This document shows positions 1,783-16,441 of a DNA stretch of 36,381 nucleotides, one piece after another (the first letter of the stretch is position 1; each line of letters begins with the position of its first letter). The DNA lies in NCBI RefSeq assembly GCF_029213205.1, contig NZ_JARGNH010000017.1:41055-77435 (forward strand). Direction: 5' to 3'. The stretch comes from Pseudooceanicola sp. (lineage in GTDB: Bacteria > Pseudomonadota > Alphaproteobacteria > Rhodobacterales > Rhodobacteraceae). The notes below the pieces were generated by a model. It was not told where the DNA came from, did no database searches, and saw nothing but the letters and a program-made list of their open reading frames with translations. A program made the translations under genes and the position numbers.

Positions 1783-1786
1783 GTCT

Positions 1787-3454
1787 TTACCCCAGCTTCA
1801 CGTTGTCGATGCCCACGATCTTGTCATAGGCCCAGTAGAGGATCAGCACCGCCGCCAGCAGGATGGCCCCGAGCGCGGCGCCCAGCCCCCAGTTCAGCGA
1901 TGACGAGATGTGATAGGCGATCCGGTTCGAAATGAACGTCCCGGTGGTGCCGCCGACGATTTCCGGCGTGATGTAATAGCCGATGGCCAGGATGAAGACC
2001 AGGATCGACCCGGCGCCGATCCCCGGCACCGATTGCGGGAAATAGACCCGCCAGAACGCCGTCCAATTGGTGGCGCCCAGCGATTTCGCGGCACGCAGAT
2101 AGGTCGGCTGGATGGTCTGCATCACCGAATAGAGCGGCAGGATCATGAAAGGCAACAGGATATGCGTCATCGCCACGATGGTGCCGAACTGATTGTTGAT
2201 CATGATCAATCGGCTGTCATCCGACACGATATGCAGCCAGACCAACACATCGTTGATTACCCCCTGCTGTTGCAGCATCACCTTCCAGGCTGAGGTCCGC
2301 ACCAGCAGCGAGGTCCAGAACGGCAACAGCACCAGGATCATCAGGAGATTGGCGGTGCGCATTGGCAGGTTGGCGAGCAGCCAGGCCACCGGATAGCCCA
2401 GCATGATGCAGGACAGGGTGATGGTGATCGACATGAAGATCGTGCGCTTGAACAACAGGCCGTAGATCTGTTCGTTCTCCGGCCGCGCCTCGATCCCGTC
2501 CGGGGTCAGCTGCATGTCGGCCGCGTTGAGGAAATAGCCCGGTGTGTATTTCGGCGCATAAGTCTTGATCGTCGCCCAGACCTGGGGATCGGCCCAGTCC
2601 TTGTCAGCGTCCAGGAACCCTTGTTTGAGGTCAAACTTGGTGAAATTCACGGCGGCGGTGCGGGCTTCTGCGATCAGATCCGGCATCGGGCCGGAATAGG
2701 CGGCACCCGGCGTGGTCAGATCCATGTAAAGCGCGGTATGCACCAGCGTCCAGGGGTCTTCGTCGGTCGGGCTGTCCTGGTCGACCTCTTGGATGAACTT
2801 GGCAAATTCGCTGTAAGCCTCGGCGGTGCGCGGCAGCATCATGGCCACGCCCGGGCGCAGCTCGAACGCCGGTTCTGCGCCTTTCTTGGTCTTGGCCCAA
2901 TCCGCCTGCGCGGTGGTCCAGCCGGGTGCGGCCAGCAGGGCCACCCAGGTCTTTGGGTCTTTCCACGCCGCATTCAACGCGTTGAACTGGTCTTCATAGA
3001 CTTCGCCAAAATCGTCCAACCGGCGCCCGGTCTTGCGGAACAGCGATGACACGCCGGTCATCTCGTAATTCAGCCTGGTGCCCAGGCGGGTGTGCAATTT
3101 GCGCTCGGCTGCGACAAAGAGATCGACGTAAAGCGCCTCAAAGGTTTCGATCCCGGGTTCGACTCCGGTGTCGGCGTCCCACTCATCGAGCTTTGCCACG
3201 GTGCGCGGCAGGGTTTCCGACACAATCTGGTTTTCGACAGAGCGGAACAGCATGTCGGCAATCGGCGCGATAAAGGTGAGCATCACGAACAGCAGCAGCG
3301 GCGCGATCAGCAGCAGCGCCCGCACCTTCTGACGCCGCAGGGCGCGCGCCAGCGAGCGTTTCAGCGGCGTGCCGTCGGCGGCAAGCATCAGGCCGGTCTG
3401 GCTGTCCGTCTCATCGCCCACTTGAGTGCCGGTCTGAAAGGATGAATCCGTCAT
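1787..3454 (-). CDS. ABC transporter permease, PotB-like, with a large periplasmic insertion
   Basis: A 555-residue BPD-type permease, about twice the usual PotB length (275-285). A cytoplasmic N-terminus of about 45 residues is followed by TM1 (about 48-70). A hydrophilic block of roughly 265 residues (about 75-340), rich in charged and Trp residues, precedes the remaining five membrane segments. The EAA loop near residues 465-490 reads YLRAAKSLGATNWTAFWRV. The start at 3454 is chosen because AGGAGGG (3461-3467) lies 6 bases upstream; an in-frame start at 3472 would put that SD inside the gene. The extra block should lie in the periplasm and may contact the binding protein (inference). Confidence 0.87.
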   Translation of the reverse strand: MTDSSFQTGTQVGDETDSQTGLMLAADGTPLKRSLARALRRQKVRALLLIAPLLLFVMLTFIAPIADMLFRSVENQIVSETLPRTVAKLDEWDADTGVEPGIETFEALYVDLFVAAERKLHTRLGTRLNYEMTGVSSLFRKTGRRLDDFGEVYEDQFNALNAAWKDPKTWVALLAAPGWTTAQADWAKTKKGAEPAFELRPGVAMMLPRTAEAYSEFAKFIQEVDQDSPTDEDPWTLVHTALYMDLTTPGAAYSGPMPDLIAEARTAAVNFTKFDLKQGFLDADKDWADPQVWATIKTYAPKYTPGYFLNAADMQLTPDGIEARPENEQIYGLLFKRTIFMSITITLSCIMLGYPVAWLLANLPMRTANLLMILVLLPFWTSLLVRTSAWKVMLQQQGVINDVLVWLHIVSDDSRLIMINNQFGTIVAMTHILLPFMILPLYSVMQTIQPTYLRAAKSLGATNWTAFWRVYFPQSVPGIGAGSILVFILAIGYYITPEIVGGTTGTFISNRIAYHISSSLNWGLGAALGAILLAAVLILYWAYDKIVGIDNVKLG

Positions 3455-3455
3455 G

Positions 3456-3554
3456 TCAGGCCCTCCTGCCACTGGTGTTGGCTTTCGTGGTCGTCTGGAT
3501 CGCGTCCTCGGGGTCGGTCACCGAGTTCTGGCCGATGATAGTGCCCTTTGGCAT
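3456..3554 (-). pseudogene. Mini-ORF resembling the N-terminus of a DUF1330 protein (probable relic)
   Basis: A 32-codon reading frame beginning MPKGTIIGQNSVTDPE. The complete DUF1330 gene at 11077-11364 begins MPKGYIIGHITVNDPE, so 11 of the first 16 residues agree; after that the similarity ends. An AGGGA element lies 8 bases before its ATG. Its last codons (AGG AGG GCC TGA) form the Shine-Dalgarno of the next permease gene, whose ATG starts 1 base after the stop. I read it as the 5' end of a deleted DUF1330 gene that may survive as a translational-coupling leader. It could instead be a functional small peptide or a coincidence; about 100 bases is too short to be certain. Confidence 0.45.
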
Positions 3555-3630
3555 GTCAAATGTCCCTGTCGTCTGTCCGGCGGTCGTGCCGCCTTGGAGC
3601 GCCGGACGAAATGCCCGATCGGCCCGAGCT

Positions 3631-3690
3631 GTGCGAGGCGGGCAGATTGCCGCCTCGCACGATGGCAATGGGCGGGCCAGAGGCCCGCCC
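3631..3690 (-). other. Two tandem stem-loops in the binding-protein/permease spacer
   Basis: Reading with the operon, the first hairpin has 9-bp perfect arms GGGCGGGCC (3690-3682 with 3678-3670) and a 3-base loop, 7 bases after the binding-protein stop. The second has 11-bp perfect arms GTGCGAGGCGG (3660-3650 with 3641-3631) and an 8-base loop. Neither is followed by a U-tract. Such hairpins after the binding-protein gene of ABC operons commonly protect the upstream mRNA and lower expression of the permeases (established for maltose-type operons; inferred here). Confidence 0.7.
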
Positions 3691-3697
3691 AAGTGTC

Positions 3698-4816
3698 TTA
3701 TTGTGCCAACCAGGCTTGGAATTTCGCGTCGATGTCGTCGCGATAATCCGCCCAGAACTCGTAGTTATAGAGGAACGTGTTCTTGGCATTGGCCGGATCG
3801 GTCGGCATATGCGGACCCATCGCGATGCCCAGCTCGGCATGTTTGCCGACCAGCGGCGCCGAGGACAGGCGTGCCGGACCGTAGGAGATGTACTTCGCCT
3901 GATCCGCCAGACGCTGAGTGTCGGTGGCGAACGTCAGGAAGTCCTTGACCCGGGCCAGACGATCGGCGGGCAGACCGGCGGGAATGATCCAGCCGTCAAG
4001 GTCGAACACCTGCGCGTCCCACATCATGGCGACAGGCTGTTTCTGCTCTTCGATGACCGAGAACAGACGACCGTTATAGGTCGAGCCCATGAAGATCTCG
4101 CCATCCGCCAGCAGTTGCGGCGTATCGGCGCCAGCCGACCACCAGATCACCTGATCCTTGATGGTGCCGAGCTTGTCCAGCGCCTGTTGCTGACCAGCTT
4201 CGGTTGCCAGAACGTCATAGACAGCGTCCTTGGCCACACCGTCGCAGAGCAGCGCCCATTCCATATTGTTGATCGGGCGTTTTTCCAGCGACCGTTTGCC
4301 CGGGTATTTTTCCAGGTCGAACACGTCACAGATTTTGCTCGGGGCTTCGACGCCAGCCGGCACCATGTCGGTGCGATAGCCAAAGGTGGTCGAATACACG
4401 ATCTGCGGGATAAAGCAGTCGCTCACCAGCAGGTCGCCGAAATCGTCTTCGGCCGAGGTGCCGTCAGGCGCCGCTGCCAGGTCTTCGTCGGGGTCGATTT
4501 CCATCGCCAGACCTTCGTCGCAGAGACGAATGCCATCCGATGCCACGACATCGACGAGGTCCCAGGTGACGTTCCCGGCTTCGTTCATGGCGCGCAGTTT
4601 TGCCACAGCTTCGGCCGAGCTTTCGTCCCAGACGACGTTCACGTCGTCATGCATGCCGAGATAAGGTTCGACATAGGCCTTTTGCTGGCTTGATTGATAG
4701 GCGCCGCCCCAGGACACGAGCGTCAGCTCGTTTGCCATGTTGCCGTGGCTGGCCGCAAAGGCCATGCCCGCCGCGGATACCGCGACACCGGCGATTAGGG
4801 TCTTGGTCAGTTTCAT
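3698..4816 (-). CDS. ABC transporter periplasmic substrate-binding protein, PotD/PotF superfamily
   Basis: A 372-residue secreted protein. A signal peptide of about 22 residues (MKLTKTLIAGVAVSAAGMAFA, then ASHG) targets it to the periplasm. The mature start ELTLVSWGGAYQ differs from the polyamine-binding signature (YNWSDYI in the second system at 14099). SWGGAY-type starts are common in binding proteins for other cationic or opine-like compounds, so the ligand is probably not plain putrescine or spermidine (inference). GGGAG lies 7 bases before the ATG. It is the second gene of its operon, 110 bases after the ATPase gene, and is followed by two strong hairpins that may raise its level relative to the permeases. 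Confidence 0.88.
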   Translation of the reverse strand: MKLTKTLIAGVAVSAAGMAFAASHGNMANELTLVSWGGAYQSSQQKAYVEPYLGMHDDVNVVWDESSAEAVAKLRAMNEAGNVTWDLVDVVASDGIRLCDEGLAMEIDPDEDLAAAPDGTSAEDDFGDLLVSDCFIPQIVYSTTFGYRTDMVPAGVEAPSKICDVFDLEKYPGKRSLEKRPINNMEWALLCDGVAKDAVYDVLATEAGQQQALDKLGTIKDQVIWWSAGADTPQLLADGEIFMGSTYNGRLFSVIEEQKQPVAMMWDAQVFDLDGWIIPAGLPADRLARVKDFLTFATDTQRLADQAKYISYGPARLSSAPLVGKHAELGIAMGPHMPTDPANAKNTFLYNYEFWADYRDDIDAKFQAWLAQ

Positions 4817-4925
4817 ACTGTGCTCCCTAGCTTTGAGCCCGTATTTGAAGTTCGAGATCCCCAGCCACGGGCAAGACGTTCAGGATCTGTCAAAACCGCA
4901 CCGAAACCGGCGCGAGTTCGGCCCG

Positions 4926-6026
4926 TCAGGCATCCAGCGCGTGGCAATCGGTCGGCAGCCAGCCGATTTCGATCTTGTCGCCACGCCGCAGACGCACCTG
5001 ATCAGGCGCATTCCGGGTCTTGATGATGAAATCTTCTTTGCCCGCGACCCGCAGCCGTGTGCGAAAAATGTCGCCCATATAAATGAATTCAAGCACTTCG
5101 GCATGCAGCGTGTGCACGCCTTCGGCCATCCGTTCCTTGTTGTATTCGACCCGCTCAGGGCGGATCGAAACCTGGGTTCTTTCGCCGACCCCAGCGATGT
5201 TCACTGCCTTGGCGACAATGGTTTCGCCATCGTCCAGGGTGACATTGCACAGCTCGCCATCAACCGCAGTCACGATGCCGGACAGGGTGTTATTCTCGCC
5301 GATAAACTGCGCGACAAAGCTGTTCTGCGGGCTTTCATAGAGCTGATCTGGCGGCGCCAGCTGCTGAATGCGGCCATCGTCGAACACCGCAACGCGATCA
5401 GACATGGTCAGCGCCTCGGTCTGGTCATGGGTCACATAGACCGTGGTGATTCCTAGGGAATGGGCGAGGTTGGTGATCTCGAACTGCATATGTTCGCGCA
5501 ATTGCTTGTCGAGCGCGCCCAGTGGTTCGTCCATCAGCACCAGTTCAGGCTCGAACACCAGGGCGCGGGCCAGGGCGATCCGCTGCTGCTGACCACCCGA
5601 AAGCTGCGCCGGGCGGCGACCGCCGAAATCGCCCATCTGCACCATGTCGAGGGCGCGCTTCACCTTGGCCTCGCGATCGGACTTGCCGATCTTGCGAACC
5701 TCAAGCGGAAAGGCAAGGTTTTCGGCCACGGTCATATGCGGGAACAGGGCGTAGTTCTGGAACACCATGCCGATGCCGCGCTTGTGCGGCGGGATGTTGT
5801 TGATCGGTTTGCCATCCAGGAGGATTTCGCCATGGGTGGCGGTTTCAAACCCGGCCAGCATCATCAGGCAGGTGGTTTTGCCCGATCCCGACGGTCCGAG
5901 CATGGTCAGAAACTCGCCCTTGGGCAGCGCCAGGTTCAGGTCTTTGACGACCAGTGTCTCGCCGTCGTAGCTCTTCTGAACGCGTTCGAATGCGACGAAA
6001 GCGTCGCTTGTGTTTCCATCAGCCAA
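4926..6026 (-). CDS. ABC transporter ATP-binding protein, PotA-like
   Basis: A 366-residue ATPase with the full ABC motif set: Walker A GPSGSGKT (44-51), Q-loop Gln90, signature LSGGQ (142-146), Walker B LVLMDEP (Asp166, Glu167) and switch His200 (THDQTEA). A C-terminal TOBE domain of about 120 residues follows, as in PotA and UgpC. The start codon is TTG at 6024-6026: GGGGAG lies 6 bases upstream, and the nearby ATG is out of frame. It is the first transporter gene of the operon and lies 205 bases after the aminotransferase stop, across a structured spacer. It should power uptake with the two permeases and the binding protein downstream. Confidence 0.9.
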   Translation of the reverse strand: MADGNTSDAFVAFERVQKSYDGETLVVKDLNLALPKGEFLTMLGPSGSGKTTCLMMLAGFETATHGEILLDGKPINNIPPHKRGIGMVFQNYALFPHMTVAENLAFPLEVRKIGKSDREAKVKRALDMVQMGDFGGRRPAQLSGGQQQRIALARALVFEPELVLMDEPLGALDKQLREHMQFEITNLAHSLGITTVYVTHDQTEALTMSDRVAVFDDGRIQQLAPPDQLYESPQNSFVAQFIGENNTLSGIVTAVDGELCNVTLDDGETIVAKAVNIAGVGERTQVSIRPERVEYNKERMAEGVHTLHAEVLEFIYMGDIFRTRLRVAGKEDFIIKTRNAPDQVRLRRGDKIEIGWLPTDCHALDA

Positions 6027-6103
6027 AAGCGGCTCCCCGTTGTCTTATGCGCGGTTATATTTCCGCTTTATTTCCTGATACTAAACATTTTCGCGGCCCA
6101 AAA

Positions 6104-6132
6104 TGCAACCGGTAGGCGGTGAAACCGGTGCA
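6104..6132. promoter_or_regulatory. Imperfect dyad upstream of the PotA-like gene (possible operator/promoter)
   Basis: TGCAACCGGT and ACCGGTGCA are near-perfect inverted arms around AGGCGGTGAA. On the minus strand this overlaps a weak promoter-like pair, TTGCAT (6108-6103), 17 bases, then TTTAGT (4 of 6 matches to the -10 consensus), about 55 bases before the ATPase start. Either a second promoter for the transporter genes or part of the structured leader would explain it. Confidence 0.3.
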
Positions 6133-6145
6133 AATCCGATATGAC

Positions 6146-6236
6146 GCTAGGGAAGCGACTGCAGATCGGGCAATAGTTTCCAAGGCCGCGCCGGTTTTGA
6201 AATAATCTGCAATCGCCTGTTCGAATCGTCCCTAGC
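6146..6236 (-). ncRNA. Structured RNA element in the aminotransferase/PotA-like spacer
   Basis: On the minus strand, GCTAGGGA pairs with TCCCTAGC (outer 8-bp helix; the aminotransferase TAG stop is inside it). GCGATTGCAGAT pairs with ATCTGCAGTCGC (inner helix of 12 pairs, one U-G). The helices are separated by a 12-base bulge on the 5' side and one base on the 3' side, and close a loop of about 38 bases containing CCGGCGCGGCC. No U-tract follows, so it is not a classical terminator. It matches no riboswitch consensus I know. It may be an mRNA processing or stability element, or a leader RNA for the transporter genes. Confidence 0.45.
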
Positions 6237-7602
6237 CCAGAACCTTGGCAACGGCCTTGGCGGTCTTGTCTGCGATCTCGTCGGCTTCTGACTCGGTCAG
6301 GCAGAACGGCGGTGCAAAGCCCAGGATGTCGCCCTGCGGCATCGCCCGGGCGATGACCCCCTGGTCCAGCATCGCGGCGGCGACCTTGGCGCCGATCCCG
6401 TCGCTGGCCTCAAAGAAGCTGCCGTTCGCCGGGTCCTTCATGAACTCGACCGCCGCAATCATCCCATCGCCGCGCACTTCACCGACCTGAGCATGACCGC
6501 CGACCGCAGCGCGCAGCGCGGCGTTCAGATAGGCGCCGGTCTTGCCCGCCGCTGCGACCAGGTTCAGCTCGTCGATCAGCTTCAGATTGGCAACCCCGGC
6601 GGCCGCGCCGATCGGATGGGCGGAATAGGTCCAGCCATGGCCGATCGGCCCGTTTTCATCGGTGCCCTGTTCCAGAACTTTCCACATCTTGTCCCCGACA
6701 ATCGAGCCGGACAGCGGCGCATAGGCGCTGGTCAGCCCCTTGGCGATGGTGATCAAATCCGGGCGCATACCGTAGTGATCGGACCCGAACATCGTGCCCA
6801 GACGGCCAAACCCGGTCACCACCTCATCGGCGACCAACAGGATGTCATGGCGATCCAGCACCGCCTGAATTGCGGGCCAGTAGCCGGCGGGCGGCGGCAC
6901 GATGCCACCGGTGCCCATCAGCGGCTCACCAATGAACGCGGCGATGGTGTCGGCGCCTTCTCGGGCGATCATCTCTTCAAGGTCGGCCACGCATTGCGCG
7001 GTAAATGCCGCCTCGTCCTGGCTCTGGTCCTCGCGGCGCAGGAAATACGGCGCGGTGGTGTGCAGGATCGGCGCGCGCGGCAGGTCGAACTTGTTGTGGA
7101 ACCCGGCCAGCCCGGTCAGCGATCCGGTCATCACCCCCGAGCCGTGGTAGCCACGCCAGCGCGAGATGATCTTTTTCTTTTCCGGCCGCCCGAGGATGTT
7201 GTTGTAATACCAGATCAGCTTGATGTTGGTCTCGTTTGCATCCGATCCACCAAGGCCAAAATAGACCTTGCTCATCCCCTTCGGCGCCCGGTCCAGCACC
7301 ATCTTGGCCAGGGTGATCGAGGCCTCGGTGCCGTGGCCGACATAGGCGTGGTAATAGGCCAGTTCGCGCGCCTGATCGGCAATCGCTTCGGCGATCTCCA
7401 TTCGGCCATAGCCGACATTCACGCAATAGAGCCCGGCAAAGGCATCGAGCAGGCGGGTGCCGTCGCGATCCTCGATATGGCAGCCGCTGGCGGTGCGGAT
7501 GACGCGATTTGGCAGCTCGCCCCGGGCGAACTGGGCGAGATGGGTGGAGGGGTGAAAGAAATTCTCCCGGTCCCATTGATCAAGCTGGTCGTTGCGCAGC
7601 AT
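6232..7602 (-). CDS. Class III PLP-dependent aminotransferase (omega-transaminase)
   Basis: A 456-residue fold-type I transaminase. The PLP lysine is Lys288 (TIAKGLTSAYAPLSG), the pyridine-nitrogen Asp is Asp259 (LLVADEVVTGFGR), and the ring-stacking pair is Tyr152-His153 (WRGYHGSG). From memory it is very close to the structurally solved omega-transaminase of Ruegeria sp. TM1040 (PDB 3FCR), which uses pyruvate as acceptor and accepts bulky amines. The start at 7602 is set by AAAGGAGG 5 bases upstream; a longer in-frame version to 7674 lacks support. It lies 19 bases after the small gene at 7622-7882 and shares its promoter. In this cluster it would transaminate the diamine or diamino acid released by the M24 and M20 enzymes (inference). 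Confidence 0.92.
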   Translation of the reverse strand: MLRNDQLDQWDRENFFHPSTHLAQFARGELPNRVIRTASGCHIEDRDGTRLLDAFAGLYCVNVGYGRMEIAEAIADQARELAYYHAYVGHGTEASITLAKMVLDRAPKGMSKVYFGLGGSDANETNIKLIWYYNNILGRPEKKKIISRWRGYHGSGVMTGSLTGLAGFHNKFDLPRAPILHTTAPYFLRREDQSQDEAAFTAQCVADLEEMIAREGADTIAAFIGEPLMGTGGIVPPPAGYWPAIQAVLDRHDILLVADEVVTGFGRLGTMFGSDHYGMRPDLITIAKGLTSAYAPLSGSIVGDKMWKVLEQGTDENGPIGHGWTYSAHPIGAAAGVANLKLIDELNLVAAAGKTGAYLNAALRAAVGGHAQVGEVRGDGMIAAVEFMKDPANGSFFEASDGIGAKVAAAMLDQGVIARAMPQGDILGFAPPFCLTESEADEIADKTAKAVAKVLG

Positions 7603-7621
7603 GGCGCCTCCTTTCCTGGGG

Positions 7622-7882
7622 TCAGGTCGTGATGATCTGCCCGGTTTTCGTGTTGGCCAAGAGCCCGGCCACATGGCTGGCGATGGCGGTGTCCTGCGCT
7701 CCGGTTCCGGTCACCCCGGCACACTTCACCTCAGCCGGGGCCAGATGCCGGGCGGCGGCGCGGATGTCGGTGAGATTGCCATTGTCGAGGATCAGCGGAG
7801 TCGCGTCAGCCCGGTCCGCAAGGGCCCCCGCCGCCGTTTCTACGGCCGCCATCGTCACCATGGGTTTGGTCGCTTTGCTCAT
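7622..7882 (-). CDS. Small unrecognised protein, first gene of the aminotransferase operon
   Basis: An 86-residue frame beginning MSKATKPMVTMAAVETAAGA. I do not recognise the family. It is Ala/Thr-rich, with no membrane segment or signal peptide, and a Gly/Ala stretch near residues 62-78 (GVTGTGAQDTAIASHVAG). Codon third positions are G/C-rich, consistent with real coding. There is no Shine-Dalgarno: the bases before the ATG are the palindromic operator (7884-7897). The predicted transcription start lies within about 3-5 bases of the ATG, suggesting a leaderless mRNA. Shorter in-frame starts exist at 7861 and 7852 but have no better SD. It may be a small partner of the aminotransferase, or non-functional. 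Confidence 0.6.
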   Translation of the reverse strand: MSKATKPMVTMAAVETAAGALADRADATPLILDNGNLTDIRAAARHLAPAEVKCAGVTGTGAQDTAIASHVAGLLANTKTGQIITT

Positions 7883-7883
7883 A

Positions 7884-7897
7884 TGTTGTGCACAACA
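7884..7897. promoter_or_regulatory. Palindromic operator 1 (TGTTGTGCACAACA)
   Basis: A perfect 14-bp palindrome directly upstream of the ATG at 7882. Its 12-bp core GTTGTGCACAAC is identical to operator 2 at 7990-8003. TTGTnnACAA palindromes are typical binding sites for GntR-family (FCD subgroup) repressors, and a GntR/FCD gene is in the divergent operon. It overlaps the putative -10 of the minus-strand promoter, the expected position for repression. Confidence 0.75.
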
Positions 7898-7921
7898 CGC
7901 TCTAAAATGCCCAAACGTCAA
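7892..7921 (-). promoter_or_regulatory. Putative sigma-70 promoter for the aminotransferase operon
   Basis: On the minus strand, TTGACG (7921-7916, 5 of 6 matches to TTGACA), an 18-base spacer, then TGTTGT (7897-7892, a weak -10 with 3 of 6 matches). The -10 lies within operator 1. Transcription would begin near 7885, so the first gene (ATG at 7882) would be almost leaderless. Confidence 0.4.
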
Positions 7922-7989
7922 CTCTGACGCATGGTTAACCACTGATGTTTTCCGAAAACGACCTGTTTGGTTCGGTTTTGGAGCGGCAC

Positions 7990-8003
7990 GGTTGTGCACA
8001 ACC
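7990..8003. promoter_or_regulatory. Palindromic operator 2 (GGTTGTGCACAACC)
   Basis: A perfect 14-bp palindrome with the same 12-bp core as operator 1. Centre-to-centre distance is 106 bp, close to ten helical turns, which would allow two dimers on the same DNA face to loop the promoter region. It sits 46 bases before the M24 gene start. A weak plus-strand -35 (TTGGTT, 7967-7972) lies 17 bases before the GGTTGT of this palindrome, mirroring the arrangement on the other strand. Confidence 0.75.
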
Positions 8004-8049
8004 TGTCACCAAATCCCTGTCAGGGCCCAAACCAGCGCCGGAGACCAGC

Positions 8050-9234
8050 ATGATCCGCAAATCGATTCCCTTTTCGGATACCGAATATCAGCGCCGCTTG
8101 AACAAGACCCGGCTGGCGATGCAGGCGGCAGGAATCGAGGTGCTGTGCGTTTCCGACCCGTCCAACATGGCCTGGCTCACCGGCTATGACGGCTGGAGCT
8201 TTTATGTCCATCAGGGCGTCGTCGTCTTTCTGGATCGTGACCCCTGGTGGTGGGGCCGGATGCAGGATCGCAACGGCGCCCTGCGCACCGTCTGGATGGA
8301 GGACAGCCGTATCCACGGCTATGTCGATAATTTCGTGCAGAGCACCGACCGCCACCCGATGCAGGACCTGGCCGCCAATCTGGTGGCGATGGGCGTCGGC
8401 ACCGTGCATATCGGGGTGGAGATGGAGAATTACTATTATTCCGCCAAGGCGCATGCGGTGCTGACCCATGAATTGCCTGACGCCACCTTTCACGACGCCA
8501 CCGCGTTGGTGAATTGGCAGCGCACCGTCAAATCCGACGAAGAGCTGGTGTTCATGCGCCATGCCGCGCGGATCTCGGAAAAGATCGTCGATGGCCTGCT
8601 TGAGCGGGTCGAACCCGGGGTGCAAAAGAACCAGGTGGTGGCGGAAATCTATCGCGACGCTATCAACGGCGTCGACGGCGCCTGGGGCGATTACGCCGCG
8701 ATCCCGCCCCTGCTGCCCTCGGGATCGGACGCCGCCGCGCCGCATCTGACCTGGGACGGCAGGCCCTTTATCGAGGGCGAAGCGACGTTTTTTGAGATCT
8801 CCGGCTGCTATCGCCGCTACCACGCGCCGTTCTGCCGGACCCTGTTCCTTGGCAAGCCCTCTGATATCCTGCTTGCCGCCGAGGCGGCGCTGGTCGAGGG
8901 GCTGGAGGCCGGGATTGATGCCGCCCGCGCCGGCAACCGAGCCTGTGACGTCGCCAATGCCCTGGCCGGACCGCTGGAGCGGGCCAAGATCACCCGCGGT
9001 GAACGCTGTGGCTATCCGATCGGGCTGTCCTATCCGCCGGATTGGGGCGAGCGCACGATTTCCTTCCGGGCCGAAGATGAGACGGTTCTGGAACCCGGCA
9101 TGACCTTTCATTTCATGCCCGGTCTCTGGATGGCCGATTGGGGGCTGGAGATTACCGAATCCATCCTGATCAAGGCGGACGGTGCCGCAGAATGCCTCTG
9201 CGATCGGCCGCGCAAGATGTATGTGAAAGCATGA
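8050..9234 (+). CDS. M24-family hydrolase, ectoine hydrolase (DoeA/EutD)/creatinase-like, without metal ligands
   Basis: A 394-residue pita-bread-fold protein. The N-terminal domain carries SDPSNMAWLTGYDGWSFYVH (35-54), which from memory is characteristic of DoeA/EutD ectoine hydrolases, and length fits (about 400). In the catalytic domain the first metal Asp is Glu249 (FFEISGC) and the second is missing (HAPFCRT, about 258-264). It should therefore be a metal-free enzyme, like creatinase and EutD, in which a Glu at this place attacks the ring. The start at 8050 has GGAGA 5 bases upstream; an in-frame ATG at 7945 would run through operator 2. The next gene overlaps by ATGA. Substrate is unknown: a cyclic amidine or N-acylated diamino acid is likely. 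Confidence 0.85.
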   Translation: MIRKSIPFSDTEYQRRLNKTRLAMQAAGIEVLCVSDPSNMAWLTGYDGWSFYVHQGVVVFLDRDPWWWGRMQDRNGALRTVWMEDSRIHGYVDNFVQSTDRHPMQDLAANLVAMGVGTVHIGVEMENYYYSAKAHAVLTHELPDATFHDATALVNWQRTVKSDEELVFMRHAARISEKIVDGLLERVEPGVQKNQVVAEIYRDAINGVDGAWGDYAAIPPLLPSGSDAAAPHLTWDGRPFIEGEATFFEISGCYRRYHAPFCRTLFLGKPSDILLAAEAALVEGLEAGIDAARAGNRACDVANALAGPLERAKITRGERCGYPIGLSYPPDWGERTISFRAEDETVLEPGMTFHFMPGLWMADWGLEITESILIKADGAAECLCDRPRKMYVKA

Positions 9235-10397
9235 GCGATCTGGCCACCACCACCGCGATCCTGGCGGATCTGATCGCCCATCCGACGGTGTCTTCCGAGG
9301 CCAATACCGAGGTGATTGCCCATATGGCCACCCGGCTTGAGGACGCAGGCGCCCGGGTCGAGGTGATGCTGGACGCGACCGGGCAAAAGGCCAACCTGTT
9401 TGCCAGTATCGGGCCAGAGGAACCCGGCGGCATCATGCTGTCGGGCCATTCCGACGTGGTCCCGGTCGAGGATCAGCCCTGGACCGGCGACCCTTTCGCG
9501 ATGTGGCAGGAGGGCGACCGGCTCTATGGTCGTGGCAGTTGTGACATGAAGGGGTTTCTGGCGGCCTGCATCGCATCGGCGCCTCTGTTCAATGCGCGCA
9601 AGCTGACCCGACCGGTGCATTTCGCCTTTACCCATGACGAGGAAATCGGCTGTCTCGGGGCGCAGTCGCTTGCCGACGTGCTCAAGGATCGCGTCGCCCG
9701 CCCGGCCTTGGCCATCGTTGGCGAGCCGACCTCGATGCGGATTGTCGAGGGTCACAAGGGCTGCTGCGAATACCGCGTCACCTTTACCGGCGTTGAAGGT
9801 CATGGATCGCGTCCCGAAATGGGGGTGAATGCCGCCGAATTCGCCGCCCGCTATGTCACCCGCCTGCTGGAACTGCGCGAGACGCTGCGGCATCGCACGC
9901 CGCCGGACAGCCGGTTCGAACCGCCCTGGACCACCATCAACATCGGGCGGCTGTCTGGTGGCCATGCGCCCAACGTGATACCCGGGCTGGCCGAAGTTGA
10001 ATGGGAAATGAGGCCGGTGCAAAAGACCGATGCGGATTTCGTCAAACGCCTGATCAACGGCTATGCCGAGGATATCCTGCTGCCCGAAATGCAGCGCGTC
10101 GCAACCGACGCCTCCATCGTCACCGAGGTGTTGGGCGAGGTCGCCGGGCTGCAACCGGCAGACCGCAATGCGGCGCTTGCAATCGTTGCCGAACTGACCG
10201 GTGCCAATGGCGCCGATCTGGTGGCCTTTGGCACCGAGGCCGGGCTCTATCAGGATATCGGCATGGATGTGGTGGTCTGCGGTCCCGGGTCGATTGAACA
10301 GGCGCACAAGCCTGACGAATATCTTGAGACCGGGCAGCTGACCGCCTGTCTCGACATGCTCTCCGGTCTTGCGGACCGGTTGACCGCCCATGGCTGA
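9231..10397 (+). CDS. M20-family deacetylase, acetylornithine deacetylase (ArgE)-like
   Basis: A 388-residue zinc hydrolase with all M20 landmarks: His73 and Asp75 (SGHSDVVP), bridging Asp105 (GRGSCDMKG), catalytic Glu137 and ligand Glu138 (THDEEIG), Glu165 (GEPTS) and a C-terminal ligand His (EQAHKPDEY). The dimerisation domain lies around residues 175-290. ArgE removes acetyl from N-acetylornithine. Here the gene overlaps the M24 gene (ATGA at 9231-9234) and the regulator gene (8 bases), so it is a dedicated catabolic step, probably deacylating the product of the M24 enzyme. Canonical ectoine operons use an AstE/AspA-type deacetylase (DoeB/EutE) instead. Confidence 0.9.
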   Translation: MSDLATTTAILADLIAHPTVSSEANTEVIAHMATRLEDAGARVEVMLDATGQKANLFASIGPEEPGGIMLSGHSDVVPVEDQPWTGDPFAMWQEGDRLYGRGSCDMKGFLAACIASAPLFNARKLTRPVHFAFTHDEEIGCLGAQSLADVLKDRVARPALAIVGEPTSMRIVEGHKGCCEYRVTFTGVEGHGSRPEMGVNAAEFAARYVTRLLELRETLRHRTPPDSRFEPPWTTINIGRLSGGHAPNVIPGLAEVEWEMRPVQKTDADFVKRLINGYAEDILLPEMQRVATDASIVTEVLGEVAGLQPADRNAALAIVAELTGANGADLVAFGTEAGLYQDIGMDVVVCGPGSIEQAHKPDEYLETGQLTACLDMLSGLADRLTAHG

Positions 10398-11040
10398 GGA
10401 TGTGCGCGACCGTCTGGATCGGCTGCACCGGGTGATGCGCGAACGGATTTGCCTGCTCGACTGGCCACCGGGGTCGCGGCTGTCAGAGGCCGAGATTGCC
10501 GCCGATTATGGCATGTCGCGGACCCCGATCCGCCGGGTTCTGGCCCGGCTTGAGGACGAGGGGCTGGTGCAATCGCAACATGGCATCGGCACCCTGGTCA
10601 CCGATCCCGGCGAGGAAGAGCTGGCGCAGACCTATGCCCTGCGCAGCGAATTGGCCGAGCTGGTCGGGCGGATGGCGCCGGTGCAACCGACCGACGCCCA
10701 TCTGGCACGTCTCAGCAATATCATGGCTGAGGCCGAGGCGCTGACCCGGCGGCCCGAGCCGCGCGAATTCGTCCGGCTGAACATGGCCTTTTTCGATTTC
10801 GGCCTGACCCTGACCGACAATCTGGTGCTGCGTGAGGTGTCCGAAACACTCTACTACCGCACCGCCCGGGTCTGGCTGCGCCAGATTGCCGATCTGGACC
10901 TGTCCGAGGAATGCGCGGTGTTCATCCGCGAATTGAACGACTGCGCCCTGGCGCTGCGCAGCGGCGACGCACTGGCCGCCGCCCTGATCCGCCGCGCCCA
11001 TATCTCGATGTCGGTGCGGCGCTTGATGCGCGACGTCTAG
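10390..11040 (+). CDS. GntR-family transcriptional regulator (FCD subfamily)
   Basis: A 216-residue regulator. A winged helix-turn-helix occupies about residues 8-75 (SRLSEAEIAADYGMSRTPIR is the recognition part, followed by the wing HGIGTLV), and an all-helical FCD effector domain about 80-212. The usual FCD metal histidines are mostly absent: FH is replaced by FFDF near residue 136 and the eHraI position is VFIREL, leaving only His207 (RAHISMS). It is the third gene of the operon and overlaps the deacetylase gene by 8 bases. The TTGTGCACAA palindromes at 7884 and 7990 are its likely operators, giving autoregulation plus control of the divergent aminotransferase and transporter genes. Confidence 0.92.
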   Translation: MAEDVRDRLDRLHRVMRERICLLDWPPGSRLSEAEIAADYGMSRTPIRRVLARLEDEGLVQSQHGIGTLVTDPGEEELAQTYALRSELAELVGRMAPVQPTDAHLARLSNIMAEAEALTRRPEPREFVRLNMAFFDFGLTLTDNLVLREVSETLYYRTARVWLRQIADLDLSEECAVFIRELNDCALALRSGDALAAALIRRAHISMSVRRLMRDV

Positions 11041-11409: not shown

Positions 11410-11916
11410 CTAACCCAGCGGTGTCACCGCGACGATGACTTCGGTGATCAGCCCGGCCAGCAGCGGCAAGATCAGGCAAGAGCCTAGCCGCAACGCGACA
11501 AAGCGCCAGCCCATGATCGGGGCTTCATAGGCCAGCAACCGGTGCAGCGCGAACACCGACCAACCGCCGATCAGCCCGACCATCTGTGGAATCCCGGCGC
11601 CGCCTTCGATGAACACGATGGCAATCGGGAACGAGGTCATCGGCCCCCCCGGCAACAGCCCGCCAAGCAGCGAGGCAATGAAGATCCCGATCACGCCCGA
11701 AGTCGGGCCGATCAGCCGCGACATCGGCTCGATCGGCACGATCTGCACCAGGAAAGACGCCGCCAGCAGCGCCAGCGGCAGCCGCAGCACCAGGGTCTTG
11801 CTGATTCCGGCCGCCGAGGCTGCCCCGGCGCGCAATCCCCTCGGGCCTTCGCGCCGCCAGACAAAATAGCCGAGGATCAGAACCGCGACCCAGACGATGA
11901 TCAGTGGACCGTTCAT
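11410..11916 (-). CDS. Half-size DUF318/COG0701-like permease subunit B
   Basis: A 168-residue membrane protein starting MNGPLIIVWVAVLILGYFVW, with about four or five hydrophobic segments and the motif LLPGGPMTSFPIAIVF near residues 88-103. The upstream neighbour has the matching TPGGPFTSFPMVYALW. TPGGP-x(3)-FP motifs occur in predicted permeases of COG0701 (DUF318, ArsP-like), which are normally single chains of about 300-350 residues with two such halves. The ATG overlaps the upstream stop codon (ATGA), which argues for equimolar heterodimer assembly. Longer in-frame versions would lie inside the upstream gene and are not favoured. Substrate is unknown. Confidence 0.8.
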   Translation of the reverse strand: MNGPLIIVWVAVLILGYFVWRREGPRGLRAGAASAAGISKTLVLRLPLALLAASFLVQIVPIEPMSRLIGPTSGVIGIFIASLLGGLLPGGPMTSFPIAIVFIEGGAGIPQMVGLIGGWSVFALHRLLAYEAPIMGWRFVALRLGSCLILPLLAGLITEVIVAVTPLG

Positions 11917-12446
11917 TCCGCCTCGGGCGATTTGAGCTGAAACGCCGGCCAGCGGGTCAGCCAGCGCGCAAGCACACCCGCGAGGATCGGCAGCGGCAGG
12001 CAGGCGGCATAGCGGATCAGGCTGAATTCGACCCCCAGCAAGGGCAATTCCCATACGATCAGCCGGTTGAAGCCAAGCAGCGACCAGGCCGAGATAAAGG
12101 CGATCAGCGCCCCGGCATCCGCCCCAGCGATCCAGAGCGCATAGACCATCGGGAATGAGGTGAACGGCCCGCCCGGCGTCAGCAGACCGGCAATCGTCGC
12201 CAGCATCAGCCCGGTCAGCCCCGAGGCCCCGCCGAGCCAGCGGGCGACCTTTTCGCGACTGACCAGCCGGGTCACCAGCCCGCCGATCAGCAGACCGGCG
12301 ACAAGTTGCGGCAGGATTTCGAGCAGCAAGATTCCCGCCTTGACCGTCCCGTCGATCACTGGATCGGCGCCGAACCGGGCATAACAGATGCCGCCGGTGA
12401 CGCTGGCCAGCAGGAAAAACACGATATCGGTCTTGGCAATCTTCAT
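11913..12446 (-). CDS. Half-size DUF318/COG0701-like permease subunit A
   Basis: A 177-residue membrane protein (MKIAKTDIVFFLLASVTGGI start) with about five hydrophobic segments. It contains REKVARWLGGASGLTGLMLA (about 69-88) and the pore-type motif TPGGPFTSFP (about 95-104), both typical of COG0701 permeases. It is about half the family length, and its partner half is the overlapping downstream gene. The pair sits between the two aminotransferase modules and before DUF1330. It could export or import a metabolite or metalloid; nothing in the sequence decides this. Confidence 0.8.
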   Translation of the reverse strand: MKIAKTDIVFFLLASVTGGICYARFGADPVIDGTVKAGILLLEILPQLVAGLLIGGLVTRLVSREKVARWLGGASGLTGLMLATIAGLLTPGGPFTSFPMVYALWIAGADAGALIAFISAWSLLGFNRLIVWELPLLGVEFSLIRYAACLPLPILAGVLARWLTRWPAFQLKSPEAE

Positions 12447-12565: not shown

Positions 12566-13960
12566 TTATCCCGCCTCCCAGAGTCCCGCCGCTTTGACGG
12601 CCGCCATGCCTTCGTCCAGCGATTTCCGGGCGCGGGCGATCAGCAGGTCGATCTCGGATTCGGAAATCACCAGCGGCGGCGAGATGATCATCCGGTCGCC
12701 GACATGGCGCATGATCAGGTTGTTGGCGAAGCAGCGCTCGCGCACCATATAGCCGACGGTCCCGGTCTCGGCGGCAAAGGCCGCGCGGCTGGCCTTGTCC
12801 GGGGTCAGGGCCAGCGACCCCATCATCCCGACGATCTTGACCTCACCGACCATCGGATGATCGGCGAGGCTTTCGAATTGCGCCTTGAGGTAGGGGCCGG
12901 TCACGTCGTGCACCCGCTCGACGATCTGTTCCTCTTCCAGGATCCGCAGGTTTTCCAACGCCACGGCACAGGCCACCGGATGGCCGGAATAGGTGTAACC
13001 GTGGTTGAATTCACAGGCCCCCAGCACCGCCGCCACCTCGTCGCAGACAATCGAGCCACCGATCGGCTGATAGCCTGACGACAATCCCTTGGCGATGGTC
13101 ATGATATGCGGGCGGATGTTCATCGCCTGCGAGCCGAACCAATGGCCGGTGCGGCCAAAGCCACAGATCACCTCATCGGCGATCAGCAGGATGCCGTATT
13201 TGTCGACGATCCGCTGCACTTCGGGCCAATAGCTGTCCGGCGCCACAATCACCCCGCCGGCGCCCTGCACCGGCTCGGCGATAAAGGCGCCGACGCGATC
13301 CGCCCCGATTTCCAGGATCTTGGCCTCCAGCTCCTGCGCGCGGGCCAGACCAAAGGCCTCTGCTGTCATCTCGCCGCCCTCGGCCCACCAGTTCGGCTGA
13401 CCGATATGGGCAATGCCGGGAATCGGCAGCCCGCCCTGTGCATGCATCCCGACCATACCGCCGAGCGAGGCCGACCCCATCGAGGACCCGTGATAGCCGT
13501 TCCAGCGGCCGATGATCACATCACGCTCGGGCTGTCCTTTTTCTGCCCAATAACTGCGCACCATGCGGATATTGGTGTCATTTGCCTCGGATCCGCTCGA
13601 CGCGAAAAACACATGGTTCAGATCGCCCGGCGCCAGGTCTGCCAGTTTCGCCGCCAGCGCGATCACCGGCACATGGGTGGTCATGAAGAACGTGTTGTAA
13701 TACGGCAGTTCGCGCATCTGCCGCGCCGCCGCCTCAGCCAGTTCCTCACGGCCATAGCCGATGTTGACGCACCAGAGCCCAGCCATCGCGTCAAGGATTT
13801 CGACGCCATCGCTGTCGTGCAGATAGCAGCCCCTGGCGCTGGTGATCACCCGGGCGCCGCGGGTGTTGAAATCATTCTGGGTCGAAAACGGGTGCATGTG
13901 ATGCGCTGCGTCCAGCGCCTGCAGTTCGGAGGTTGGCAAATGGTTGGTAATCGCGGACAT
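12566..13960 (-). CDS. Omega-amino acid/putrescine:pyruvate aminotransferase, SpuC-like
   Basis: A 464-residue class III PLP aminotransferase. The PLP lysine is Lys291 (TIAKGLSSGYQPIGG), the ring-nitrogen Asp is Asp262 (LLIADEVICGFGR), and Tyr156-His157 stacks on PLP. From memory it is close to the omega-transaminase of Ruegeria pomeroyi (PDB 3HMU) and to SpuC of Pseudomonas, which converts putrescine plus pyruvate into 4-aminobutanal and alanine. It is divergent from potFGHI with a 138-base shared promoter region, a context that fits putrescine use. It is clearly a different subgroup from the aminotransferase at 6232-7602. Confidence 0.92.
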   Translation of the reverse strand: MSAITNHLPTSELQALDAAHHMHPFSTQNDFNTRGARVITSARGCYLHDSDGVEILDAMAGLWCVNIGYGREELAEAAARQMRELPYYNTFFMTTHVPVIALAAKLADLAPGDLNHVFFASSGSEANDTNIRMVRSYWAEKGQPERDVIIGRWNGYHGSSMGSASLGGMVGMHAQGGLPIPGIAHIGQPNWWAEGGEMTAEAFGLARAQELEAKILEIGADRVGAFIAEPVQGAGGVIVAPDSYWPEVQRIVDKYGILLIADEVICGFGRTGHWFGSQAMNIRPHIMTIAKGLSSGYQPIGGSIVCDEVAAVLGACEFNHGYTYSGHPVACAVALENLRILEEEQIVERVHDVTGPYLKAQFESLADHPMVGEVKIVGMMGSLALTPDKASRAAFAAETGTVGYMVRERCFANNLIMRHVGDRMIISPPLVISESEIDLLIARARKSLDEGMAAVKAAGLWEAG

Positions 13961-14038
13961 GGGGCACCTGATTGCTGGGTTACGTCAGGACGCTACGCCG
14001 CCGCCGTATGAAACGCCATATTGCCATAACACCAATTT

Positions 14039-14078
14039 GTTGCTTGGATCATCGGGCAAGGACGTCAGACCAAGCAAC
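14039..14078. promoter_or_regulatory. Inverted repeat in the spuC-like/potF divergent region
   Basis: GTTGCTTGG (14039-14047) and CCAAGCAAC (14070-14078) are perfect 9-bp inverted arms 22 bases apart, with partial continuation inward (ATC/GA). Centre-to-centre spacing of the arms is 31 bases, about three helical turns. It lies 21 bases before the potF start, so it is either an operator for the putrescine module or a leader hairpin in the potF mRNA. It shares no sequence with the GTTGTGCACAAC operators. Confidence 0.45.
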
Positions 14079-14098
14079 GTCCAACGGGAGACACACTT

Positions 14099-15181
14099 AT
14101 GACCAAGACACTTGTTTCGATCGCCGCCGCTCTGGCCATTGGCACCGCCGCCATGGCCGAGGATGTGCGCGTCTACAACTGGTCCGATTACATCGACGAA
14201 AATCTGCTGGCCAAGTTTCAGACCGAGACCGGGATCAACCTGATCTATGATGTCTTTGACAGCAACGAGCTGCTGGAAACCAAGATGCTGGCCGGCGGCT
14301 CGGGCTATGATGTGGTGGTGCCGACCGGCACCTTCCTGCAACGGCAGATCAGCGCCGGGGCGTTTCAAAAACTCGATCTGGCGAAATTGCCGAACCATCA
14401 AAACCTGTGGGATGTGATCGCCAAGCGCACCGCGCAATACGATCCCGACAATGCCTATTCTATCAACTACATGTGGGGCACCACCGGCATTGGCGCCAAT
14501 ATCGGCAAGGTGACCGCGACGCTGGGCGCCGATGCGCCGATCGACAGCCTCGAACTGGTGTTCGATCCGGCCAATATGGAAAAGCTGGCCGCCTGCGGCG
14601 TGCATTTCCTGGATGCCCCGACCGAAATGATCCCGGCGGCGCTGAAATACATTGGCGAGGATCCCGACAGCAAGGACCCGGCCAAGATCGAGGAGGCCGC
14701 CAAAGTGCTCGAGGCGGTCCGCCCCTATGTGCAGAAATTCCACAGTTCGGAATATATCAACGCCCTGGCCAATGGCGACATCTGCGTCGCTTTCGGCTGG
14801 TCCGGTGACATCCTGCAGGCCCGTGACCGGGCTGCCGAGGCCGACAATGGCAATGAGATTGCCTTTCACGCCCCCAAGGAGGGTGCGCTGATGTGGTTTG
14901 ACCAGATGGCGATCCCCGCCGATGCCCCGAACCCGGACGGCGCCCATAAATTCCTGAATTTCATCATGGATGCGCAGAACATGGCGGCGGCGTCGAACTA
15001 TGTCTATTACGCCAATGGCAACAAGGCCTCACAGGAATTCCTGAATGAGGATGTGATCGGCGACGGGGCGATCTACCCGGATGCGGCCACGCTGGACAAC
15101 CTCTATTCGGTCTCGCCCTATGATCCCAAGGTGCAGCGGGTGGTGACCCGGATCTGGACCCGGGTCAAATCCGGCACCTGA
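14099..15181 (+). CDS. potF: Putrescine ABC transporter periplasmic binding protein PotF-like
   Basis: A 360-residue secreted binding protein. Signal peptide MTKTLVSIAAALAIGTAAMA, mature start EDVRVYNWSDYIDE. The YNWSDYI motif is the PotF/PotD polyamine-contact signature (Trp, Ser and Asp near the ligand). Further PotF-like features are GSGYDVVVPTGTFLQRQ (about 76-92) and FGWSGDILQARDRA (about 235-248). GGGAG lies about 8 bases before the ATG. It is the first gene of potFGHI-oxidoreductase and is followed by a strong hairpin before the ATPase gene. Putrescine is the most likely ligand. Confidence 0.92.
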   Translation: MTKTLVSIAAALAIGTAAMAEDVRVYNWSDYIDENLLAKFQTETGINLIYDVFDSNELLETKMLAGGSGYDVVVPTGTFLQRQISAGAFQKLDLAKLPNHQNLWDVIAKRTAQYDPDNAYSINYMWGTTGIGANIGKVTATLGADAPIDSLELVFDPANMEKLAACGVHFLDAPTEMIPAALKYIGEDPDSKDPAKIEEAAKVLEAVRPYVQKFHSSEYINALANGDICVAFGWSGDILQARDRAAEADNGNEIAFHAPKEGALMWFDQMAIPADAPNPDGAHKFLNFIMDAQNMAAASNYVYYANGNKASQEFLNEDVIGDGAIYPDAATLDNLYSVSPYDPKVQRVVTRIWTRVKSGT

Positions 15182-15195
15182 CGCATATGGCACAG

Positions 15196-15220
15196 GGTCC
15201 GCGCGGCATTCGCGCGGCCC
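15196..15220 (+). other. Stem-loop between potF and potG
   Basis: CCGCGCG (15199-15205), loop GCATT, CGCGCGG (15211-15217), extended outward by GGG/CCC with one bulged T. It begins 14 bases after the potF stop, has no U-tract, and parallels the hairpins after the other binding-protein gene (3631-3690). Probable role: keeping the binding-protein mRNA more abundant than the rest of the operon. Confidence 0.6.
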
Positions 15221-15239
15221 GGCCCAGACCGGAGGCGTC

Positions 15240-16361
15240 ATGCCGCAAACTGTATTTGCCCCCTGGAACGACCCCGACGAAAAGCCGCTGATCAGCTTTC
15301 AGGGCGTGACCAAACGGTTTGGCGATTTCACCGCCATCGACGACATCACGCTCGGCATCTACGCCCGTGAATTCTTTGCCCTGCTCGGCCCCTCCGGCTG
15401 CGGCAAGACCACTCTGATGCGGATGCTCGGCGGCTTCGAAACGCCCAGCGCGGGCACGATCCTGCTGGCCGGACAGGACATTGCCCCGGTGCCGCCGAAC
15501 AAGCGCGCGGTGAACATGATGTTCCAGAGCTACGCGCTGTTCCCGCATCTGTCGGTCTGGGACAACATCGCCTTTGGCCTGCGCCGCGAGGGCCGCGACA
15601 AGGCCGCCATCGCCGCCCGGGTCGAGGAGATGCTGAAACTCACCCGGCTGGAAAAGTTCAGCCACCGCAAGCCGCATCAGATTTCTGGCGGCCAACGGCA
15701 ACGGGTGGCGCTGGCGCGGTCGCTGGCCAAGGCGCCGAAACTGCTGCTTCTCGACGAGCCGCTCGGCGCGCTGGATCGCAAATTGCGTGAAGAAACCCAG
15801 TTCGAGCTGATGGATATCCAGGAAAAGACCGGCACCACATTCGTCATCGTCACCCATGACCAGGAAGAGGCGATGACCGTTGCCTCGCGCGTTGCGGTGA
15901 TGGACGAGGGCCGGTTGATTCAGGTCGCCACGCCTGACCGGATCTATGAGACCCCCGATTCCGTATATGTGGCGGATTTCATCGGCGACGTGAATATCAT
16001 CGAGGCAAGCGCCCGCCAGAGCGGCGACAAGGTCAGCCTGGCCTGGGCCGAGGGCCAGCTGCCGCTGATCGCCACGACCACCAAAACCTTTGCCCCGGAT
16101 CAGCACTGCTGGCTGGCGATCCGCCCCGAGAAAATCGCGATTTCCGCCGAAAGGCCAAAGGCGGCGAATGCATTGCAGGGCCGGATCCTCGACATTGCCT
16201 ATCTTGGCAATATCTCGACCTATCACGTGGCGCTGCCCAGCGGTCAGGTGCTCAAGGCGCAGACCGCCAACACCCGCCGCATCGAACGCCGCAGCTTCAC
16301 CTGGGAGGACGAGGTCTGGATCAGTTGGACCGACACCGCCGGGGTGCTGCTGGACAAATGA
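15240..16361 (+). CDS. potG: Putrescine ABC transporter ATPase PotG-like
   Basis: A 373-residue ABC ATPase: Walker A GPSGCGKT (50-57), Q-loop Gln96, signature ISGGQ (148-152), Walker B LLLLDEP (168-174), switch His206 (THDQEEAMT), and a C-terminal TOBE domain from about residue 290. GGAGG lies 4 bases before the ATG. It follows potF by 58 bases and would energise PotH/PotI. A repeat element separates it from potH, unlike the overlapping junctions downstream. Confidence 0.92.
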   Translation: MPQTVFAPWNDPDEKPLISFQGVTKRFGDFTAIDDITLGIYAREFFALLGPSGCGKTTLMRMLGGFETPSAGTILLAGQDIAPVPPNKRAVNMMFQSYALFPHLSVWDNIAFGLRREGRDKAAIAARVEEMLKLTRLEKFSHRKPHQISGGQRQRVALARSLAKAPKLLLLDEPLGALDRKLREETQFELMDIQEKTGTTFVIVTHDQEEAMTVASRVAVMDEGRLIQVATPDRIYETPDSVYVADFIGDVNIIEASARQSGDKVSLAWAEGQLPLIATTTKTFAPDQHCWLAIRPEKIAISAERPKAANALQGRILDIAYLGNISTYHVALPSGQVLKAQTANTRRIERRSFTWEDEVWISWTDTAGVLLDK

Positions 16362-16378
16362 CCCTGCGCCGCCCTCCA

Positions 16379-16441
16379 GCTTCATCTTGCCGGAAATATT
16401 CCGGGGGAGTCGCGCTATGGCGCGACGGGGGCAGCGCCCCC
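16379..16441 (-). repeat. Dispersed GC-rich repeat with two hairpins inside the pot operon
   Basis: In plus-strand order: the 24-base block shared with 27-50, then CCGGGGG, a perfect hairpin GTCGCGC-TATG-GCGCGAC (16409-16426), then a second GGGGGC-AGC-GCCCCC (16427-16441). The same architecture in opposite orientation occurs at 26663-26729. It occupies most of the potG-potH spacer. An in-frame ATG at 16417, preceded by GGGGGAG, lies inside the hairpin and could be mistaken for the potH start. Confidence 0.8.

Follow-up and report, generated by a model that had tools for sequence, protein, structure and literature searches.

Ectoine, a compound that protects against salt, is widespread and known to serve as a nutrient. 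Its efficient breakdown requires that the hydrolase EutD (DoeA) and the deacetylase EutE are both present (PMC8739950, accessible part), and as EutD needs a deacetylase partner, a substitute is to be expected where EutE is absent. The hydroxyectoine branch is the proposed role of EutABC (PMC13188858, accessible part). Here we analyse a stretch of 36,381 nucleotides, in the following referred to as the window (G000:C34:41055-77435), from the 3.69 Mb genome of a Pseudooceanicola strain of the order Rhodobacterales (assembly 95.6% complete; further loci and genomes are given by our L and G numbers). In this window, genes for an EutD-like M24 hydrolase, an ArgE-type M20 deacetylase and a GntR/FCD regulator lie divergent to genes for a class III transaminase and a Pot-like ATP-binding cassette (ABC) importer (Table 1). 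We consider it very likely from these sequence comparisons that the cluster serves the utilisation of ectoine, ancestrally of ectoine and 5-hydroxyectoine, and that EutE has been displaced by the unrelated M20 protein.

The EutD-like M24 protein and the Atf-like transaminase are common to the canonical ectoine cluster and the window, and relatives of the window also contain EutB, EutC, AsnC, Ssd and, in one case, Ueh. In contrast to the canonical cluster, EutE is replaced by M20, the regulator is a GntR/FCD protein and not the MocR-type EnuR, and the importer is Pot-like in 56 of the 70 loci of the respective M24 clade (see below) in which an importer was seen. EutD clusters without EutE that contain the amidohydrolase gene abgB, presumably also of the M20 family, occur in Bacillota. 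These clusters are mentioned in the accessible text of PMC13188858, a 2026 survey focused on hits that contain EutD, EutE and EutB, where abgB is not proposed as a replacement of EutE; they differ from the window in lineage and genes (PucR regulator, thrA, adh). In the literature searched, mostly papers available without subscription, we found no description of an M20/ArgE-type second step in ectoine breakdown, and neither M20 nor ArgE is mentioned in the accessible parts of PMC13188858, PMC5924519 and PMC7192451. The cluster is best read as ectoine catabolism in which the second enzyme has been displaced, the repressor is another one and the importer perhaps is too, a combination that appears to be common in the order.

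In the proposed pathway, the M24 protein would open the ectoine ring by means of a conserved glutamate and without a metal, giving N-alpha-acetyl-L-2,4-diaminobutyrate, which the M20 protein would deacetylate at a two-metal site, and the class III transaminase would convert L-2,4-diaminobutyrate to aspartate semialdehyde. The GntR/FCD protein would repress the divergent operons by binding, in the region that separates them, to two TTGTNNACAA sites that face the same side of the helix. A preliminary description of the window, made from the sequence alone, had already named this enzyme set (6232-11040) and the order of ring opening, deacetylation and transamination; the former is confirmed by profile matches and the latter we judge to be right.

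EutE and the M20 deacetylase largely exclude each other

Searches for EutD-like M24 proteins (E 1e-60), EutE (over the curated cut-off) and the M20 protein (E 1e-110) were all run on one set of 390 genomes of the order, and the genome lists for the cross-counts were copied by hand between the searches. The M20 threshold was set after seeing that partners lie at ≤1e-152 and paralogs at 1e-94 to 1e-99; values in between were counted as M20. An EutD-like M24 protein is present in 286 genomes, EutE in 88, all of them with M24, and M20 in 161, of which 159 have M24. Of the 286 M24 genomes, 86 encode EutE but no M20, 157 encode M20 but no EutE, two (G339 and G362) encode both and 41 neither, a number that drops to 34 on counting seven weaker EutE matches; the M20 version outnumbers the textbook EutE version in this sample. 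The 104 genomes without M24 include none with EutE and two with M20. The exclusion of EutE and M20 reaches a Fisher p of 2e-38, uncorrected for descent. M20 is found in 114 of the 127 genomes with an M24 protein at ≥63% identity and EutE in one (G362, which has both), and the other 159 M24 genomes contain M20 in 45 and EutE in 87 cases. As read off the listings, EutE species and M20 species stand side by side in at least 12 genera, from which we conclude that the two deacetylases were probably exchanged many times. Surveys that require EutE, such as PMC13188858 to judge from its accessible part, would skip the M20 version, and if our interpretation is right, ectoine consumption in the order is underestimated.

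The M20 gene follows directly behind the M24 gene in 65 of 80 related loci, from which we conclude that the pairing is not due to chance. This number includes 64 loci counted by script and L028, which was added separately because only part of its M24 had been detected; duplicate or short loci (L001-L003, L090-L097, L118-L147, L185, L188-L203) were skipped. Among the 149 M20 genomes listed with coordinates, M20 lies within 3 kb of M24 in 104 and not so in 31, which in draft assemblies may reflect a contig break, and 14 have no listed M24 position. In genus g26, M20 is encoded elsewhere in the genome at 59-62% identity in seven of eight genomes examined, the exception being G130 with only 44%. 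Similarly, the ueh-eutD clusters L159 and L148 contain neither EutE nor M20 within the 17 kb fetched, and the respective genomes (G358 and G153) hold M20.

The M20 protein passes the curated acetylornithine deacetylase model TIGR01892 (377.8 versus a cut-off of 297.7) and is therefore likely to be annotated under that name. It has the family and the metal-site residues in common with the acetylornithine deacetylase ArgE (7rsf), and the six catalytic and metal positions are identical in all 94 aligned sequences; since these include two paralogs, the identity indicates an intact site and no specificity. Its passing the ArgE models would also agree with an ordinary ArgE from arginine synthesis that just happens to be encoded beside M24, but we regard this as highly improbable: unlike what would be expected of a biosynthetic enzyme, its distribution is tied to the EutD-like M24 protein (159 of 161), with M20 in 159 of 286 M24 genomes versus 2 of 104 without M24, non-adjacent cases included, and the next M20 protein of the host genome is only 37% identical. 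No EutE (TIGR02994) was matched in the host assembly, 95.6% complete, so the earlier proposal that M20 takes the place of EutE stands, and no canonical eutE elsewhere in the genome accompanies the M24 protein. EutB was likewise not found over the cut-off in the host genome.

By eye, no replacement deacetylase was recognised downstream of M24 in the loci without M20, nor a deacetylase near EutD in L223 and L224. The M24 genomes with neither deacetylase include G001, G010, G025, G083, G130, G144, G169 and G223; a third deacetylase may exist in these 41 genomes.

The M24 protein belongs to a sister clade of EutE-linked EutD

The M24 protein resembles the solved ectoine hydrolases (6twj, 6twk, 6yo9) over its full length, with 489.5 bits to 6twk (DoeA), and the glutamate of the FFEI motif, which we take to be the catalytic E255 of R. 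pomeroyi EutD, is conserved. The positions of the M24 peptidase ligands, presumably D, D, H, E and E in the prolidase 3q6d, read E, P, L, M and T in the window protein and E, P, I, M and T in 6twk (alignments, by eye). The protein had been called metal-less before, which agrees with these replacements; because 6twk shows the same loss, however, this is the usual state of EutD and not an oddity. The protein differs from described EutD in its clade, in an identity of about 61% to Leisingera EutD and in a score below the cut-off of the EutD model.

In a tree of 145 M24 proteins with the root drawn at the midpoint, the window protein falls into a clade of 104 rows (branch 0.36; Shimodaira-Hasegawa-like approximate likelihood-ratio test, SH-aLRT, 100), of which 83 are M20-linked, 21 have no neighbouring deacetylase and none is EutE-linked. 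The remaining 41 rows comprise all 16 EutE-linked EutD, 23 proteins without deacetylase and two M20-linked ones (L154 and L155). As the rows were picked and not drawn at random (the 80 nearest loci, then by identity or by presence or absence of EutE), these label counts are not frequencies. The phylogenetic check suggested in the preliminary description places the window protein in a sister clade of EutE-linked EutD and not among them. Between the clade and the 16 EutE-linked EutD only four columns consistently differ, and 104 of 394 columns agree to 97% or more across the two groups, which gives no pointer to a different substrate.

Some further M24 loci are of note. In L154, L155 and L225, an M24 protein at 56-57% identity is directly followed by an M20 protein at 52%; this is perhaps a second, independent pairing, with L154 and L155 on the other side of the tree. 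Plasmid-borne M24 proteins of the M20-linked clade (66%) without a deacetylase are encoded in L004 (9001-10185) and L005 (4460-5644), both near a mandelate racemase family gene, two SDR genes and a DMT transporter gene, and in L004 adjoining a trimethylamine methyltransferase family gene and an aromatic ring-hydroxylating dioxygenase gene; these proteins may act on a different substrate. L160, L161, L162, L166, L167 and L178 combine an EutE-side M24 protein with an EhuA-like ATPase (35-38%), and the stretches retrieved for them contain neither EutE nor M20. A canonical ectoine cluster with doeA, doeB, an Ehu importer and a cystathionine gamma-synthase family gene is located on a Klebsiella pneumoniae plasmid (L087, NZ_CP013713.1 29094-46260), and 28 Klebsiella plasmid records match the window M24 protein.

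The transaminase and the remains of eutB and eutC link the window to ectoine clusters

The window transaminase is 78.9% identical over 456 amino acids to the transaminase of a canonical Leisingera ectoine cluster (L089), compared to 41% for a second transaminase encoded in the window (12566-13960). Among the 104 loci of the M24 clade, 36 contain EutB and EutC, 34 Ssd, 37 AsnC, 53 the transaminase and 37 the GntR regulator, all of which are lower bounds because some loci are cut. In L109, the M24-M20-GntR triad occurs together with UehA and UehC (72% and 83% to the canonical proteins), EutB, EutC, AsnC, Ssd and Atf, as well as an EnuR-like gene at 37%. In a genome of the same genus (G307, L183), genes for PotB, the solute-binding protein, PotA, the transaminase, Ssd, AsnC, EutC and EutB are arranged in this order and divergent to M24-M20-GntR.

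In the gap between the transaminase and M24 genes, the window contains an open frame of 86 residues, whose translation begins EutB-like and continues with EutC-like pieces. In a blastx search with the gap, the EutC pieces matched EutC of L010 (67% over 40 residues, E 3e-9; 59% over 34) and of L183 (62% over 40; E 1e-9 to 1e-7). The EutB piece matched EutB of L008 (47% over 74 residues, E 1e-12, in part upstream DNA) and that of L183 over 15 residues only (E 0.16). The EutC pieces are therefore the firmer part of this scar, and the EutB piece is supported by L008 and hardly by L183. By gene order and content, the window is a reduced form of the L183-type cluster, and from the scar it seems that the hydroxyectoine branch has been lost here and the ectoine branch kept.

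Both enzyme families include peptidases, eutB and eutC are reduced to a scar, and ssd and asnC do not adjoin the cluster, all of which would be in line with M24 and M20 acting on ordinary dipeptides or with a decaying locus without function. We give this hardly any credence, since the M24 protein has lost the metal ligands of the peptidases in the manner of EutD, the frames of M24, M20, GntR, transaminase and importer are open, starts overlap, and two predicted operators are present.

A GntR/FCD repressor and a putative double operator are predicted to control the cluster

As stated in the preliminary description, the regulator belongs to the GntR/FCD type, and the window scan revealed no EnuR-like (MocR/GabR) frame. 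Of the 37 GntR-carrying loci, 32 have the motif TTGTNNACAA within the 400-base region upstream of M24 (the exceptions are L018, L025, L073, L080 and L109), compared to none of the 67 clade loci without GntR and none of the 41 other loci (0 of 108 in all); among 2900 random stretches of 400 bases, 12 contain it. None of the three operator patterns tried had a match outside GntR-linked loci. Two sites are present in 13 loci, which are not independent, at spacings of 83-84, 94-97 and 104-106 and in one case 23. These spacings cluster close to integral numbers of 10.5-bp turns, with a Rayleigh p of about 2e-4 for the 13 loci and of 0.011 for the eight distinct spacings. Clustering was also obtained with periods of 10 and 11 (p 0.002 and 0.001, compared to 0.0002 for 10.5), but the mean lies near an integral number of turns with the period of 10.5 only. 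This is best interpreted as a repressor that would bridge the two predicted operators between the divergent promoters, and such a repressor and operator would represent EnuR-independent control.

Ectoine is favoured over other substrates

From the ArgE-type second step, an acetylornithine-like product had been suggested, with a homolog of ectoine or another amidine as the starting compound. This argument from the ArgE-type step is not supported; the product expected from ectoine, N-alpha-acetyl-L-2,4-diaminobutyrate, already is a homolog of N-alpha-acetylornithine, namely the lower one. That the cassette degrades another compound (an ectoine homolog, a cyclic amidine or an acylated diamine) would fit the distinct M24 clade with its branch of 0.36, the match of M20 to the acetylornithine deacetylase model and the presence of both systems in G362. 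We nevertheless consider this improbable, because the transaminase, AsnC, Ssd, EutB, EutC and, once, Ueh are homologs of the ectoine pathway, because EutE and M20 show the mutual exclusion expected of equivalents, and because M20 also occurs in genomes with an other-clade EutD beside ueh (L159, L148). Similarly unlikely, in our view, is that M24-M20-GntR and the Pot-like importer form a complete parallel system for an undescribed ectoine relative or for cyclic amidines more widely; if this were true, many genomes would consume a solute that nobody has looked for. Ectoine is favoured by the gene context (Ueh once, EutB/C, AsnC, Ssd and Atf), the M24 phylogeny and the either-or distribution of EutE and M20. 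Acetylornithine and homoectoine were ruled out as first-choice substrates on gene context and distribution.

Several observations weigh against ectoine utilisation with M20 in place of EutE. The M24 protein scores 579.8 bits with the ectoine_eutD model TIGR02993, just below the curated cut-off of 613, the tree labels stem from picked rows, and the genome counts ignore kinship. Neither deacetylase was found in 13 of the 127 genomes with M24 at ≥63%, and 15 of the 80 close loci lack M20 next to M24. G362 holds both full systems (L171 and L172), as different substrates would allow. L109, the locus with Ueh, has GntR and no TTGTNNACAA site. Finally, the best Ssd match in the host genome reaches only 47%, and the window has lost ssd as well.

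Pot-like importers prevail in the M24 clade

The preliminary description had assigned the cluster an importer of its own, which holds in so far as Pot-like genes and neither Ehu- nor Ueh-like frames were detected in the window, to which the importer search of this genome was confined; these genes are located at 928-6026, outside the range of 6232-11040 given there. The solved chain nearest to the binding protein, 8jv1, was deposited as a spermidine/putrescine-binding protein. In the 104 clade loci the importers exclude each other, with Pot in 56, Ehu in 13, Ueh in one and none seen in 34. Eleven of the 13 Ehu-bearing loci come from named records, whose genera we take to belong to the Hyphomicrobiales. 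A Pot-like importer also stands beside an other-clade EutD in three genomes (L116/L224, L153/L222 and L223), and the Pot-like binding protein (E 1e-120) is found in 218 of the 286 M24 genomes and in 27 of the 104 without M24. The latter and the polyamine name of 8jv1 make it less likely that the Pot-like importer is devoted to ectoine alone, although it may plausibly take up ectoine.

Gene organisation of the window

The M20 start codon (ATG) overlaps the M24 stop codon by 4 bases and the GntR/FCD gene overlaps the M20 gene by 8 bases, which suggests that the three genes form a single operon. The transaminase and importer genes (928-7602, minus strand) are divergent from this group (8050-11040, plus strand).

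Table 1 Predicted features of the ectoine-type cluster in the window and the evidence for their assignment.
Feature	Position (nt)	Strand	Evidence
Presumed ABC permease, PotC position	928-1782	-	Kept with ATPase and binding protein in relatives
Presumed ABC permease, PotB position	1787-3472	-	Kept with ATPase and binding protein in relatives
Periplasmic solute-binding protein (SBP_bac_8)	3698-4816	-	PF13416; nearest solved chain 8jv1
PotA-like ABC ATPase	4926-6026	-	TIGR01187, 378.6 versus cut-off 355.6
Class III transaminase, Atf/DoeD-like (predicted L-2,4-diaminobutyrate transaminase)	6232-7602	-	78.9% identity to L089 transaminase; PRK07482 above cut-off
Scar of eutB and eutC (86-residue open frame)	7622-7882	-	blastx of gap; translation
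Predicted operator 1, TTGTGCACAA	7886-7895		Two copies in window (at 7886 and 7992) versus 0.03 expected; footprint in 32/37 GntR-linked loci
Predicted operator 2	7992-8001		106 bp from operator 1; spacings mostly near whole helical turns
M24-family hydrolase, EutD/DoeA-like (predicted ectoine ring opening)	8050-9234	+	TIGR02993, 579.8 bits; 489.5 bits to 6twk; tree
ArgE-type M20 deacetylase (predicted N-alpha-acetyl-L-2,4-diaminobutyrate deacetylase replacing EutE)	9231-10397	+	TIGR01892; conserved site; either-or with EutE
GntR/FCD regulator (predicted local repressor)	10390-11040	+	PF00392 and PF07729; linked to TTGTNNACAA footprint

The host genome contains three M24-domain matches and an ectoine synthase match over the cut-off, according to which the organism may make its own ectoine. 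Further downstream in the window (12566-19507), the second class III transaminase mentioned above and a second Pot-like system are encoded, the binding protein of which (14099-15181) is closest to PotF (1a99); this looks like an ordinary cluster for putrescine uptake and transamination, and homologs of its transaminase recur beside many related loci. Two hydrophobic-looking frames on the minus strand between the GntR gene and the second transaminase gene (11410-12054 and 11913-12446) perhaps encode membrane proteins.

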